Shown here piece by piece: positions 16,076 through 21,777 of a stretch of DNA of 47,564 nucleotides. The notes beneath the pieces were generated by a model. The model saw only the letters and a list, made by a program, of their open reading frames with translations, was not told the origin of the DNA and made no database searches. The position numbers were made by a program, and so were the translations under genes. Source of the DNA: an uncultured Flavobacteriales bacterium (GTDB lineage Bacteria; Bacteroidota; Bacteroidia; Flavobacteriales_D; Crocinitomicaceae); NCBI GenBank assembly GCA_913020765.1, contig CAJWAO010000008.1, forward strand, positions 1 through 47,564, written 5' to 3'. Each line of letters begins with the position of its first letter. The stretch's first letter is position 1.

Positions 16076-16345
16076 TTAGCGACGAAGTCCTAATTCTTTT
16101 ACTAGTTTACGATATTTCTCAATATCCTTATTTTTCAAGTAGTCCAAAAGACTTCTTCTTTTACCAACGAGTAGCTGAAGCGCTCTTTGGGTACCAAAAT
16201 CTTTTTTATTCTTTTTCATGTGGTTGGTAAGGTGACCGATTCGGTAAGTAAAAAGAGCGATTTGCCCTTCTGTAGAACCGGTGTTTTTGTCCGAACCTCC
16301 GTGTTTCTTGAAAATATCCTTTTTCACTTTTTTATCTAAATACAT
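16076..16345 (-). CDS. rpsO: 30S ribosomal protein S15
   Basis: MYLDKKVKKDIFKKHGGSDKNTGSTEGQIALFTYRIGHLTNHMK...RRSLLDYLKNKDIEKYRKLVKELGLRR. The track's 30-aa extension to 16435 is not expected for S15. Confidence 0.96.
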   Translation of the reverse strand: MYLDKKVKKDIFKKHGGSDKNTGSTEGQIALFTYRIGHLTNHMKKNKKDFGTQRALQLLVGKRRSLLDYLKNKDIEKYRKLVKELGLRR

Positions 16346-16393
16346 GCCAATATTTTTGTAAATAATTATTATGTAGTCCTCTTTGGACGGGTG

Positions 16394-16401
16394 CAAATTT
16401 A
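16394..16401 (-). promoter_or_regulatory. Minus-strand -7 box TAAATTTG for rpsO
   Basis: Plus-strand CAAATTTA is the reverse complement of TAAATTTG; 48 nt upstream of the rpsO start. Confidence 0.5.
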
Positions 16402-16533: not shown

Positions 16534-16541
16534 TATATTTG
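16534..16541 (+). promoter_or_regulatory. -7 box TATATTTG for the B12-riboswitch operon
   Basis: Matches TAnnTTTG just upstream of the riboswitch; TTG at 16516-16518 gives a rather short spacer (15 nt). Confidence 0.5.
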
Positions 16542-16548
16542 TACCGCT

Positions 16549-16700
16549 TTTAGGTGTAAATCTTTATTTACTTAAAAAGGAATCCGGTGTAAGTCCGGAG
16601 CTGTATCTGCAGCTGTAAGCGTCTTAAAAACGACTTGATTAACCACTGATTTTCGGGAAGGTAAGTCGTAGTTGACGTGAGCCAGAATACTTGCCTTCGA
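16549..16700 (+). ncRNA. Cobalamin riboswitch aptamer (approximate bounds)
   Basis: Core AAGGAATCCGGTGTAAGTCCGGAGCTGTATCTGCAGCTGTAAGC (compare B12-box GGGAAnCCGGTGnAAnTCCGG...CTGT), then CCACTG...CGGGAAGGTAAGT...GTGAGCCAGAATACTTGCC. Confidence 0.9.
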
Positions 16701-16812
16701 GCATAAGAGAAGACTTCAGATTAAAGTCGGACTTAATTTCTCGACAGGGATATTATTTTCTTTTAGCTGATTTCTTCAACGTTTTATTTTTTTAATTATT
16801 TAATTTTTAACG

Positions 16813-17772
16813 ATGAAGAATGTTTACATTTTAATTACCGCCCTTTTTATTGGGGCCAATGCCAAGGCTCAAATCGATTTTGAGTCTTCTTTAACAGAAC
16901 CAGAAACCTTCAACAATGGTTCGGAAGGTCCAGATGGATTTGATTTTTCACCGATTCAACTCGTAAATTATTACGACACGGATTTCAGCTATTTTACAGG
17001 TTTTGCTATTTCAAATGTGACCGACAATACAACACCTGGATATATGAATCAATACAGTGCATACCCGGGTTCAGGCGCAGATAATTCTAGTGCTTATGCT
17101 GTGGCGTATTCAAGTCCCAAGTTCTATTCAACGTCTCCGGAGGTAAGTATACTCTCTTTTGATATCTCAAATACAACTTATGCAGGTTTATCGATGCTGG
17201 ACGGAGATTCGTTCGGGAAAAAATTTGGTGAGGACACCAATGCTGTAGGTGAAATAGATGGTACAAATGGTGAGGATTTTTTCAAGGTATGGGTTATTTG
17301 CTCCAATTTAGAAGAGGGATTCAAGGATTCACTCGAATTTTACCTTGCGGACTATAGATTCGCTGATGATTCTGAGGACTATATTATTGATTCTTGGGAA
17401 ACAATTAGCCTATCGGATTTTTCATTTAACGTAACAAGTGTATCTATGCGCTTTGAATCCTCCGATAATGGTGAGTTCGGGATGAACACACCAGCATATG
17501 TGGCTATTGACAATATCAATTGGGAAGCACCTGTTGGTATTTCAGAAACGATAGAAAACAACTATCAAGTCTACCCAAATCCAGTAACTGATGTAATGAA
17601 TATCGAAGGTCCTGCAGGGAAAATCACTGTTTCCAATATCAATGGTAAGTTAGTTTGGGAAGGAATGCACAGCATGCAGTCCAGTATAGATTTCTCAAAA
17701 CTACCGAATGGTGTTTACATGGTGAACATAAGTACACCGAACGGCACAGTTACGAAAAAAGTTATAAAATAA
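16813..17772 (+). CDS. T9SS-sorted secreted protein, DUF4465-like, first gene of the B12-riboswitch operon
   Basis: Signal peptide; DFESSLTEPETFNNGSEG...YFTGFAISNVTDNTTPGYMNQYSAYPGSGADNSSAYAVAY (DUF4465-like); C-terminal YQVYPNPVTDVMNI...LPNGVYMVNI...KKVIK. Confidence 0.8.
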   Translation: MKNVYILITALFIGANAKAQIDFESSLTEPETFNNGSEGPDGFDFSPIQLVNYYDTDFSYFTGFAISNVTDNTTPGYMNQYSAYPGSGADNSSAYAVAYSSPKFYSTSPEVSILSFDISNTTYAGLSMLDGDSFGKKFGEDTNAVGEIDGTNGEDFFKVWVICSNLEEGFKDSLEFYLADYRFADDSEDYIIDSWETISLSDFSFNVTSVSMRFESSDNGEFGMNTPAYVAIDNINWEAPVGISETIENNYQVYPNPVTDVMNIEGPAGKITVSNINGKLVWEGMHSMQSSIDFSKLPNGVYMVNISTPNGTVTKKVIK

Positions 17773-17786
17773 AGAGCAAAGAGAAC

Positions 17787-17814
17787 CCGAGGTTATGATG
17801 CTTTGTAGCCTCGG
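17787..17814 (+). promoter_or_regulatory. Intercistronic hairpin between the DUF4465-like and TonB-receptor genes
   Basis: CCGAGGTTAT-GATGCTTT-GTAGCCTCGG, 10-bp stem including GU pairs, no downstream U tract. Confidence 0.6.
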
Positions 17815-17827
17815 TGTCTCTGAACTG

Positions 17828-19792
17828 ATGAAGTGGTTAGTTATATCGTTTTTGTGGATTGGAGGTCATTGTATTGCACAAAAAAATAGAATTCAAGAGA
17901 TAAATGAGGTGACCATCACTTTTAACCTCGATACATTTAAAAGCCAAAACAAATGGGAAGCCCTTCAGGCTAATGAAATCGAGGCCCTTCAGGCCAATGA
18001 TGCGGCAGGACTCATCAGAAAGTTTACCAGTACAAGTATTAAGTCTTATGGCGGGATCGGAGGGCTAAAGACGGTATCCTCTAGAGGCCTGGGAGCGAAT
18101 CACTCGAAAATTTTAGCTGACGGATTCGGCATAAATAATATACAAAATGGCCAAGTAAATTTGGGTCAAATACACTCGGATAACATTATTTTTATAAGAA
18201 GCAATTCTGACGGAAAATCACAATTTTTACAACCCATTTCTGCTCAAGTTGCGGGAAGTCAATTTTCTTTAGAAACTTTTGAAAATAATTTTGGCAATGA
18301 CGGATTGCAATTTCGATTGTTAGGAAAGCAAGGTTCTTTCAATCAATGGGGATCCTATGGAGCACTCAAATTCACGAGCGAAAAATTTTTATTTAGTACT
18401 CATGGAAGCTTCAGACGCGCCGATGGAAATTACCCCTTTACACTGGTAAATGGAAATCAGACTTCAGAGGAGACTCGTTCGAATAATGACTACTTAGATT
18501 ATCATTTTGGTTTGACTAGCGGTATCAAAACAGGTAAATCGGTTTTTCGCTTGGGCTATATGCAAAAAGAATTTGATCAAGGACTTCCAGGAGCTGTAAT
18601 TCTTTACAATAATTCAGCTGATGAACGAATCACGAGCCGAGACCAAAACTTATTTGGAGATCATGTTTTTAAAGGAAAAAAAGTAAGTCTACGAAGTTTT
18701 ATAAAAATGAATGAAAATAATGTAACATATACTGATCCAAATTATTTAAATCAGAATGGCGGCATTGATGTTAGCTATCGCAACCAATCGTTACAGGTCG
18801 GTATTGCCTTAGAAAATAAACTTTCCAAAAATCTCAAATTGCACCTCGGGGTGGAAGAGGTCATCAGCGACTTGTTGGTCAGCGATACGACTTTTGCAAG
18901 ACCCAAAAGATATCACAATTATGCCATTGTAGGAATGAAGTATCATTTTGCGAAGAGGCTCAACCTGAGCATTCAATTATCTGAACAATTCGTGAATGAA
19001 AACAATTCAGCTGGCAAAAGTGCAGAAAATAAATTCAAGGTAAATCCATACATTGCAATATCAACGAAAGAGGAAGGGCAAAGATTTGGACATGAGATTT
19101 GGTATCGAAACTCATTTCGCATGCCCACGTTCAATGAGCTCTACTATAACAACATTGGGAATATCGACCTCAAACCTGAGGAAGCACATCAAATAAACTA
19201 TGGCTGGTCTTATTCACCTCGAAAAACTGGAAAGTTTCAGTACTATTTCCGAAACAATATATACCTCAATTATGTCAATCATAAAATTGTGGCAATACCT
19301 TCCAAAAATCTTTTTACATGGTCTATGCAAAACGTCGAGAGGGCAAATATTCTCGGTACTGATTTTAAATATGGTTCAAAATGGAAGCCTACGAAATATT
19401 TTAAACTAAATCTAGATTTAAATTACAGTCTACAGAGCGCTCGAGATGTCTCACGCCCTGACTCGCCAAGCTACAACAATCAAATTGCCTACATCCCTTT
19501 ACATACTGGAAATATTGATCTTTCTTTAACATACAAAAACACAGGCCTTAGATTTTCAAATTATACCAACTCTCTACGCTACACGCTGAATGAGAACATT
19601 AGTGCCAATCAAGTAGAAGGATTTTGGGTAAGTACACTCAGTACTTACTATTCATTAAATCTCAAAAATAAAAACATCCTGACATTGAGATTTACAATTA
19701 AAAATCTTTTTAATTCACAATACGCAGTCATTAGAAGTTTTATCATGCCCGGGCGTAATTATTTAATTGTATTGAAATATGCGTTTAATTAA
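17828..19792 (+). CDS. BtuB-like TonB-dependent outer-membrane receptor (putative corrinoid transporter)
   Basis: Plug-like segment (VSSRGLGANHSKILADGFGINNIQNGQVNLGQI), beta-barrel repeats, C-terminus KNLFNSQYAVIRSFIMPGRNYLIVLKYAFN. Start at MKWLVISF preferred over 17795, which lies in the hairpin. Substrate inferred from the riboswitch. Confidence 0.82.
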   Translation: MKWLVISFLWIGGHCIAQKNRIQEINEVTITFNLDTFKSQNKWEALQANEIEALQANDAAGLIRKFTSTSIKSYGGIGGLKTVSSRGLGANHSKILADGFGINNIQNGQVNLGQIHSDNIIFIRSNSDGKSQFLQPISAQVAGSQFSLETFENNFGNDGLQFRLLGKQGSFNQWGSYGALKFTSEKFLFSTHGSFRRADGNYPFTLVNGNQTSEETRSNNDYLDYHFGLTSGIKTGKSVFRLGYMQKEFDQGLPGAVILYNNSADERITSRDQNLFGDHVFKGKKVSLRSFIKMNENNVTYTDPNYLNQNGGIDVSYRNQSLQVGIALENKLSKNLKLHLGVEEVISDLLVSDTTFARPKRYHNYAIVGMKYHFAKRLNLSIQLSEQFVNENNSAGKSAENKFKVNPYIAISTKEEGQRFGHEIWYRNSFRMPTFNELYYNNIGNIDLKPEEAHQINYGWSYSPRKTGKFQYYFRNNIYLNYVNHKIVAIPSKNLFTWSMQNVERANILGTDFKYGSKWKPTKYFKLNLDLNYSLQSARDVSRPDSPSYNNQIAYIPLHTGNIDLSLTYKNTGLRFSNYTNSLRYTLNENISANQVEGFWVSTLSTYYSLNLKNKNILTLRFTIKNLFNSQYAVIRSFIMPGRNYLIVLKYAFN

Positions 19793-20834
19793 AATTCTTT
19801 TATGTATCGTCACTCTGCTGTGCTCCTGTGGAAAAGAGAATGAACCCGAAGTTATCACGGGCGCTTTATCGAATGGTGCTTTGGTACTTTGTGAGGGTTT
19901 ATTTCAACAGAACAACTCTCAGATTTCATTTATAAGTTTTGAGAATAAGCAGGTTGAAAATAATTTTTTCCTTAACCGAAATGACCGACAGCTAGGAGAT
20001 ACAGGAAATGATTTAAAAAGATATGGTGATAAAATTTATATCGTTGTCAACGTTTCCAGTACCATAGAGGTTATCGATGCAAATACTTTTGAATCAATAA
20101 AACAAATATCAATGATGAACGGAACGACAGCAAAACAACCTCGCTCTATACTATTTTACGATGGACTTGCCTATGTCACATGCTTTGATGGATATGTGGA
20201 CATTATAGATACAACCGCTCTAATCATAAATGACCGAATAAAAGTTGGTTCCAACCCCGAAGACATGGCTATTGTAAATAATAAACTCTATGTAACGAAC
20301 TCAGGAGGGTTAAATACACCACTCATGGATTCAACGGTTTCTGTAATTGATTTAAACACCCATCAAGAAATAGAGAAGATCATTGTAGGAATGAATCCGG
20401 GAACAATTAAAGCAGACCAAGATGGAGATATCTATGTTGTCACACGCGGAAATTATAGTAATATTCCCTCTCGAATGAAGCGAATAAATAGCGAAACCGA
20501 TAATGTGGAAGAGACTTTTAATTTTGACATTTCAGGTATTACAAGGTTTAATGATGACTTCTTGGTTACTTACTATGACTTTTCTTCGGCTCAAAATAAT
20601 GTCGCATTATTCAGCACAACGAATGAAACCATTGAAATCACTGAATTTATGCCACTCAACGAAATTCAAACACTTTATGGTTTAACATATAATCCTTCAA
20701 AAAATAAAATATTCATATCCGATGCAATGGGTTATACAAACACAGGATATATCAGAGAATATGATGTGCAAGGAAACCATATCCATAGCTATCATGTTGG
20801 ATTAAATCCCTCTAAAATTTTATTTTATGAGTAA
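19779..20834 (+). CDS. YncE-like/DUF5074-like beta-propeller lipoprotein (BtuG-like)
   Basis: Lipobox LLCSC; repeated blades (KIYIVVNVSSTIEVIDANTFESIKQI; NKLYVTNSGG...VSVIDLNTHQEIEKIIVGMNPGTIKADQDGDIYVVTRG). 14-bp overlap with the receptor gene. Confidence 0.82.
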   Translation: MRLIKILLCIVTLLCSCGKENEPEVITGALSNGALVLCEGLFQQNNSQISFISFENKQVENNFFLNRNDRQLGDTGNDLKRYGDKIYIVVNVSSTIEVIDANTFESIKQISMMNGTTAKQPRSILFYDGLAYVTCFDGYVDIIDTTALIINDRIKVGSNPEDMAIVNNKLYVTNSGGLNTPLMDSTVSVIDLNTHQEIEKIIVGMNPGTIKADQDGDIYVVTRGNYSNIPSRMKRINSETDNVEETFNFDISGITRFNDDFLVTYYDFSSAQNNVALFSTTNETIEITEFMPLNEIQTLYGLTYNPSKNKIFISDAMGYTNTGYIREYDVQGNHIHSYHVGLNPSKILFYE

Positions 20835-21777
20835 ACTTAAATGCATTTCGACCATTGTGGTAAGTATTTTATTACAATCCGTGACAATTGCGCAATCCTT
20901 CGCCCCGGAGCCAGAACAAGTAGGATCCACTGCCATATATAAAGATTCTTCAATTTTCGTTGGATGGGCTGTCGATATTTCTATCATAAGAGGTCCCATG
21001 GATTTACAAGAACCAAGTCTCGGTTTAGCAAATTACGGTTCAGCAATAGATGGAAGCTTTATTGCTGATAATAATGTGGTCTCGCTCGGCGATGGCGGAC
21101 AGGCAATTGCTACGTTTTCAGAGCCAATTGTTAATGGACCAGGGCCTGATTTCGCTGTTTTTGAAAATGGATTTGCCAATCATTATATGGAATTGGCTTT
21201 TGTTGAGGTAAGCTCTGATGGTTTAAATTACGCACGATTTGAATCGATCTCTGAAACTCCAACTGAGGTACAAATCAGTAATTTTAACTATTCTGATTGC
21301 CGATATGTGCATAACTTAGCTGGAAAGTACCGTGTTTACTTCGGTACCCCCTTTGATCTAGAAGAATTGTCAGGTATAGATGGACTTGATATCAATCGTA
21401 TTACCCACGTAAGAATAGTTGATGTTGTCGGCAGTATCTCTTCAAATATTGCCAATTACGACAGTCAAGGAAATGTGATAAATGACCCCTATCCTACTCC
21501 TTTCGAATCAGGAGGATTTGACTTAGACGCTATAGGAGTAATTCATAATGCGGAACTACAATTGAATGAATTAAATCAAAAATTTGTAGTATTTCCAAAT
21601 CCCACGAAAGACCAAATTTATTTGAAAGGTTTTGACGATTCAAAAAAATATATAACGGAACTAAGTGGAAATTTAATCGCAGAATTTTGGGGAGAATCAT
21701 TCTCCGTAACTGATTTATCGCCAGGTTTATATTTTCTAAAGCAAGGGGCAAAAACAGTGAAATTCATGAAAGAGTAA
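20827..21777 (+). CDS. T9SS-sorted secreted cell-surface protein, last gene of the B12-riboswitch operon
   Basis: Signal peptide; GPGPDFAVFENGFANHYMELAFVEVSSDGLNYARF; C-terminal FVVFPNPTKDQIYL...SPGLYFLKQGAKTVKFMKE. 8-bp overlap with the preceding gene. Confidence 0.75.
   Translation: MSKLKCISTIVVSILLQSVTIAQSFAPEPEQVGSTAIYKDSSIFVGWAVDISIIRGPMDLQEPSLGLANYGSAIDGSFIADNNVVSLGDGGQAIATFSEPIVNGPGPDFAVFENGFANHYMELAFVEVSSDGLNYARFESISETPTEVQISNFNYSDCRYVHNLAGKYRVYFGTPFDLEELSGIDGLDINRITHVRIVDVVGSISSNIANYDSQGNVINDPYPTPFESGGFDLDAIGVIHNAELQLNELNQKFVVFPNPTKDQIYLKGFDDSKKYITELSGNLIAEFWGESFSVTDLSPGLYFLKQGAKTVKFMKE

Follow-up and report, generated by a model that had tools for sequence, protein, structure and literature searches.

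How are the proteins that capture a scarce corrinoid brought to the bacterial surface, and is lipidation the only route by which this can be done? Most habitats offer little B12, and many Bacteroidota have to obtain it by scavenging; the Bacteroides proteins BtuH and BtuJ capture corrinoid and hand it on as lipoproteins. The question is raised by a locus located in a 47,564-nucleotide stretch of DNA from an uncultured Flavobacteriales bacterium of the Crocinitomicaceae (contig CAJWAO010000008.1 of assembly GCA_913020765.1, positions 1 to 47,564, analysed as a whole and hereafter called the window). Here, a cobalamin riboswitch is followed by four genes, designated as 1 to 4 (J, B, G and X), the first and the last of which code for proteins ending in a type A tail of the type IX secretion system (T9SS). 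Comparison of their sequences suggests that known B12-capture modules are delivered in this organism by the T9SS, together with a newly recognised protein that is probably a divergent BtuH. We consider it likely that the four genes form a B12-repressed corrinoid-scavenging operon, in which J and X would bind corrinoid outside the cell, reach the surface by means of the T9SS and hand their ligand to BtuG and BtuB.

Organisation of the operon

The riboswitch aptamer (RF00174) is located at nt 16535–16712 of the plus strand and was retrieved by cmscan at full length (model positions 1–189), with 92.6 bits (E 8e-22) and a gathering score of 31.5 bits; it is the sole copy in the 2.1 Mb assembly. 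The leader extending from the aptamer end to the first start codon (nt 16713–16812, plus strand) is, judging by position only, the probable expression platform, and the stretch 16700–16840 folds better than its shuffled versions (z −2.6). All four open reading frames (ORFs) lie on the riboswitch strand: gene 1 (nt 16813–17772, 319 aa), gene 2 (nt 17795–19792, 665 aa), gene 3 (nt 19779–20834, 351 aa) and gene 4 (nt 20827–21777, 316 aa). A spacing of 22 bases separates genes 1 and 2, while the ends of genes 2 and 3 overlap by 14 bases and those of genes 3 and 4 by 8 bases. This layout had been described in a sequence-only reading made without database searches, and its proposal of a corrinoid-uptake operon is borne out by the riboswitch and by the BtuB1-like and BtuG-like genes. 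A scan for sigma-70 promoters gave hits at chance level, with a model that does not cover the promoters of Bacteroidota. The same genome encodes MetH, the B12-dependent methionine synthase, and the organism therefore has a use for corrinoid.

Genes 2 and 3 match the two chains of the BtuB1-BtuG1 complex of Bacteroides thetaiotaomicron (PDB 8BLW), being adjacent and in the same order. The best PDB match of gene 2, a TonB-dependent receptor with a plug domain, was BtuB1 (8blw_A, 1e-75, residues 47–660). We refer to it as BtuB1-like and not as a TIGR01779 equivalog, because its score of 71.6 bits is far under the cut-off (599.7) of this model of the enterobacterial-type BtuB. Gene 3 codes for a BtuG-like beta-propeller with DUF5074 (64.2 bits, cut-off 27.2; 1.4e-17), having BtuG1 (8blw_B, 3e-62) as best PDB match. 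It is a probable lipoprotein, since a lipoprotein-type signal (LLCSC, Cys17) is seen by eye at the N-terminus, with an unusual Cys at −2; a simple lipobox pattern, matched by 23 of 33 BtuGs of the family, missed this type of signal. Unlike the BtuG chain of 8BLW, gene 3 carries no fused BtuH domain, and the BtuH-like domain is found as a gene of its own with a T9SS tail (gene 4). The BtuB-BtuG pair of Bacteroides works as a pedal-bin complex, the lid being a lipoprotein (PMC10404256).

Gene 1 codes for a BtuJ-type protein, with a DUF4465 domain at aa 57–235 (PF14717, 150.8 bits, cut-off 25; 6e-44) and a T9SS type A tail at aa 253–319 (Por_Secre_tail 55.7 bits, cut-off 27, 6e-15; TIGR04183 58.4 bits, cut-off 23). 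PDB matches were obtained with BtuJ1 (9FCT, 1e-10), BtuJ2 (9I2L, 1e-9) and D5EK51 (9HMU, 5e-13). The conserved residues Asn241, Thr242, Tyr245 and Tyr146 by which BtuJ1 contacts B12 through hydrogen bonds are all identical in gene 1 (Asn225, Thr226, Tyr229 and Tyr123, respectively), the HI-loop motif reading MNTPAY in gene 1 and MNTPSY in BtuJ1, and the DE-loop motif reading NTTY in both. DUF4465 is the BtuJ family: in 2025–26, tight cobalamin binding was demonstrated for BtuJ1 and BtuJ2 of B. thetaiotaomicron (PMC12751083), and B12 binding for eight divergent members, one of them from Fluviicola taffensis (PMC13398666). Gene 1 shares with BtuJ1 and BtuJ2, as with F2I9N3 of F. taffensis, both the domain (IPR027828) and the riboswitch-led btuB operon (PMC12751083, PMC13398666), but differs from BtuJ1 and BtuJ2 in having a T9SS tail in place of a lipoprotein signal. 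The C-terminal extracellular targeting motif IPR026444, which is read here as the T9SS type A motif, occurs in 229 of 824 DUF4465 sequences (PMC12751083); the idea of a T9SS-tagged DUF4465 binder is correct and, in outline, already published. The sequence-only reading expected two new corrinoid-binding factors, which is not supported in that wording: gene 1 is a member of a known family, and gene 4, annotated only by its tail, is probably a divergent BtuH and not a novel type of binder (see below).

At three other loci (L080:7383–8909, minus strand; L081:5290–6825, plus strand; L165:8758–10302, minus strand) the operon is headed, in the J position, by a T9SS-tagged protein with a length of about 510 aa. 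The L080 protein contains three repeats (ADSAVLVVDF...YAWGYLFDG), and its tail was the sole match in Pfam and PDB. These proteins are a candidate for a further corrinoid binder.

T9SS tails and predicted export

That part of the surface corrinoid capture proceeds through the T9SS and not through lipoproteins, as initially supposed from the sequence, is well supported, two components being tailed and predicted to be exported accordingly. When a lenient tail profile was applied to the loci of the family, the tail was found in 24 of 27 J, in 36 of 37 X and in none of 33 G proteins; J and X therefore consistently carry the T9SS address. The Pfam tail model was matched by 24 of 25 members of the gene-4 family (best 2.7e-12), and SprA, the component of the T9SS machinery that was searched, is encoded in the same genome (SprA_N, 510 bits). 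In the open-access literature, to which the search was confined to the exclusion of subscription papers, no paper tying BtuH or BtuG-like proteins to the T9SS was found.

The tails might nonetheless be incidental, in that the lineage would export most of its surface proteins in this way, J and X being a BtuJ and a BtuH of the ordinary kind that carry the address typical of the lineage. We regard this as quite possible, although we lean against it. These genomes are rich in T9SS tails, many of their proteins matching by the tail only, and DUF4465 proteins occur with C-terminal targeting motifs, with lipoprotein signals or with plain signals (PMC12751083). However, the division between J and X on one side and G on the other is stable, because the tail is never found on G and T9SS-tagged proteins recur in these loci. 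Moreover, incidental tails would alter the weight of the finding but not the mechanism.

In distant Bacteroidota, T9SS-tagged and weakly BtuG-like propellers were also observed within B12 operons (L144:8628–9971, minus strand; L145:1160–2503, minus strand; L146:5629–7290, plus strand; L153:8232–9893, minus strand), each adjoining a lipoprotein-type BtuG and a remote relative of gene 4.

Distribution of gene 4

A lack of association of the two T9SS genes with B12 riboswitches in other genomes had been named beforehand as one outcome that would refute the sequence-only reading; the survey instead showed the association both within and outside the family. The family survey comprised 150 genomes, 113 of which have a strong relative of gene 4. 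The order J-B-G-X following a riboswitch was found at 18 of 20 loci, belonging to 15 genera, a conservation far beyond chance; in the remaining two, a different T9SS-tagged protein occupies the J position. The operon arrangement is conserved across the family. RF00174 lies 3.8–5.7 kb upstream, on the same strand, of at least 69 of the 113 X genes, a lower bound among the matches listed and on fragmented contigs, whereas with one to few riboswitches per genome of 2–7 Mb well under 1% would be expected by chance. This tally is an undercount, because, of 13 examined X genes for which no riboswitch was listed, 6 belong to the operon, most of them located at the end of a contig and one having a riboswitch that is missing from the list, the other seven being detached.

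Outside the family, the gene-4 domain profile retrieved close relatives from a small number of families and remote relatives from many other families in the phylum. At 20 loci inspected there, 15 relatives have BtuB genes, BtuG genes or both as neighbours, and a cobalamin riboswitch lies upstream of two others, for a total of 17 of 20.

Among the detached X genes, two have upstream a shorter cobalamin riboswitch of their own (L166:4336–5349 and L167:4449–5468, both on the minus strand; 33.6 and 43 bits, respectively). In five further detached copies (L158–L162) a riboswitch was not found, nor was it in the two of them rescanned with permissive settings.

Gene 4 as a probable divergent BtuH

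When gene 4 alone, or the profile of its orthologues, was compared with PDB and Pfam, nothing except the tail (about aa 255–316) was matched. Only the deeper-branching relatives bridged its domain (about aa 22–243) to BtuH in profile searches. Against PDB, the profile of these remote relatives matched residues 433–497 of 8blw_B, in the BtuH domain of BtuGH (3.4e-5), and, more weakly, BtuH2 (7biz, 0.41). By hhalign, gene 4 was linked to the remote relatives at 99.7%, and these to BtuH at 90% (1.4e-6), the BtuH set having been collected from genomes presumed to be of Bacteroidaceae, one of which encodes a protein with 71% identity to the BtuH2 segment. Control comparisons gave values of 0.015 or worse in twenty runs with shuffled columns and of 0.1 or worse with J, G or B. 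In the reciprocal ranking, when 2,354 ORFs were searched with a BtuH profile, the gene-4 family members came straight after the true BtuHs. A relationship of gene 4 with DUF4465 was also considered and was rejected, hhalign showing no signal.

Gene 4 shares with BtuH2 (PDB 7BIZ) and with the BtuH domain of BtuGH, besides the gene neighbourhood, the block VSLG-GG-F-I-N-G-DF-ENGF. Within the alignment, Asn114 and Phe116 of gene 4 correspond to two residues of BtuH2: Asn399, in contact with the phosphate of B12, and Phe401, close to the lower ligand (BtuH2 numbering being PDB sequence position + 100, an offset deduced from the way in which Gln333, Asn399 and Phe401 are spaced). All 37 gene-4 relatives and the six BtuHs have the Asn, and the Phe is kept in 35 of the 37 relatives. 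Gene 4 differs from BtuH2 and BtuGH in its very low identity, in the second half of the domain, which is unalignable, in having neither a PKD nor a propeller domain, and in its T9SS tail.

Several observations weigh against the proposed scavenging operon with a T9SS-delivered BtuH. The tail of gene 4 in this genome falls just below the curated cut-offs (26.1 against 27 in Pfam; 22.3 against 23 for TIGR04183). Seven of the X genes examined stand apart from J-B-G, five of them with no riboswitch above the Rfam cut-off. The direct hhalign comparison of gene 4 with BtuH is weak (24%, 8e-4) and does not extend beyond the first half of the domain, and the four other corrin-contacting residues of BtuH2 (His476, Tyr510, Trp511 and Trp577) could not be placed in gene 4. 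Furthermore, the AlphaFold model of gene 4, built from six sequences, is of low confidence, with a predicted local distance difference test score of 49 for the whole protein and 47 for the domain alone. Because half of the domain is unalignable and the structure models are of low confidence, the membership of gene 4 in BtuH is probable but not proven.

Similarity extends also to the LIC_13355 family lipoprotein of Leptospira (NF033170), matched below cut-off by 12 of 12 remote gene-4 relatives (best 7e-13) and weakly by gene 4 itself (0.0046). LIC_13355 is, unlike gene 4, a spirochaete lipoprotein, and we know of no link between it and B12. The matches of the 12 remote relatives suggest that it is a distant BtuH-like protein.

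A protein encoded in a B12 operon does not necessarily bind corrinoid, and gene 4 could instead associate with BtuBG as an assembly partner, or be a co-regulated surface adhesin with a discoidin-like sandwich. BtuL of B. thetaiotaomicron offers a precedent, belonging to a B12 operon yet giving a negative result for cobalamin binding (PMC12751083), and the related LIC_13355 has been studied for its binding of host components (PMC11891782). In addition, Gln333 of BtuH is not conserved in the gene-4 relatives, and Foldseek listed for the low-confidence domain model F5/8-type and CBM32 domains together with BtuH2 (7biz), none of them significant, so that the list was not used as evidence. We nevertheless judge a non-binding role unlikely: the profile link leads to a protein, BtuH, for which B12 binding is proven, and the Asn that contacts the phosphate is invariant; throughout the phylum X is consistently paired with B, with G or with a cobalamin riboswitch, and even two of its detached copies have a cobalamin riboswitch of their own.

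Proposed mechanism

In the mechanism that we favour, corrinoid capture by T9SS-delivered J and X, low B12 would allow the riboswitch to permit expression of J-B-G-X, with BtuB and its BtuG lipoprotein lid forming the outer-membrane import complex. J and X would cross the inner membrane via Sec and the outer membrane via the type IX system, and would be either attached at the surface or released, two outcomes which sequence cannot tell apart. Outside the cell they would bind the rare corrinoid and pass it to BtuG and BtuB, the T9SS tail playing the delivery role that lipidation plays for BtuJ and BtuH of Bacteroides.

That the operon would serve another corrinoid or a metalloporphyrin-like compound, such as cobinamide or pseudocobalamin, and not B12 itself, appears improbable: cobamides are indistinguishable from sequence and operons of B. 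thetaiotaomicron respond to pseudocobalamin too (PMC12751083), but the BtuJ contacts are kept in gene 1 and, being mostly to corrin side chains, may therefore allow several cobamides to be taken.

A solitary propeller in sister lineages

A more surprising lead came from the absence of the operon from most of the window's genus, in which DUF4465 was found in 4 of 41 genomes and BtuB of the gene-2 type in 4 of 42. In most genomes of the genus a BtuB of this type was not found, the next best BtuB matches being 2e-23 and weaker, and MetH is retained in most of them. Instead of J-B-G-X, a single T9SS-tagged beta-propeller of about 415–440 aa occurs in 27 genomes of the family, which belong to the window's genus and to one further genus (for example L096:9169–10422, minus strand, and L102:4154–5485, plus strand, with 25 similar loci in alignment A7). 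In 26 of the 27 the riboswitch precedes it at a distance of 95–122 bases, the 27th being on another contig. Gene 4 is present in none of the 27 (hypergeometric 8e-22, to be taken only as a guide because related genomes are not independent). The end of the solitary propeller resembles that of BtuG (hhalign 7e-5, 63%), and its best PDB matches were designed propellers.

In these sister lineages the T9SS-exported propeller seems, from sequence, to substitute for the whole operon. As a tentative extension, T9SS delivery of the corrinoid-capture layer, with tailed forms of BtuJ, of BtuH and even of a propeller resembling BtuG, might hold for much of the Bacteroidota. Within part of the family, a solitary T9SS propeller under the sole B12 riboswitch might have replaced the operon, implying that corrinoid is acquired by way of a receptor other than a BtuB of the gene-2 type.

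Close to the operon, an S15-Flavobacteria ribosomal protein leader (RF03161, 64.3 bits) was found at nt 16343–16401 of the minus strand, before a short opposite-strand ORF, presumably rpsO, as is ordinary.

Biological meaning

A function can thus be proposed for a conserved gene that was annotated only by its tail, and the BtuH family would extend far beyond the gut Bacteroidales. The findings suggest that this lineage and its gut Bacteroides relatives use the same binding modules, brought to the surface by different routes. Whether T9SS mutants would show a defect in B12 scavenging becomes a directly testable question.

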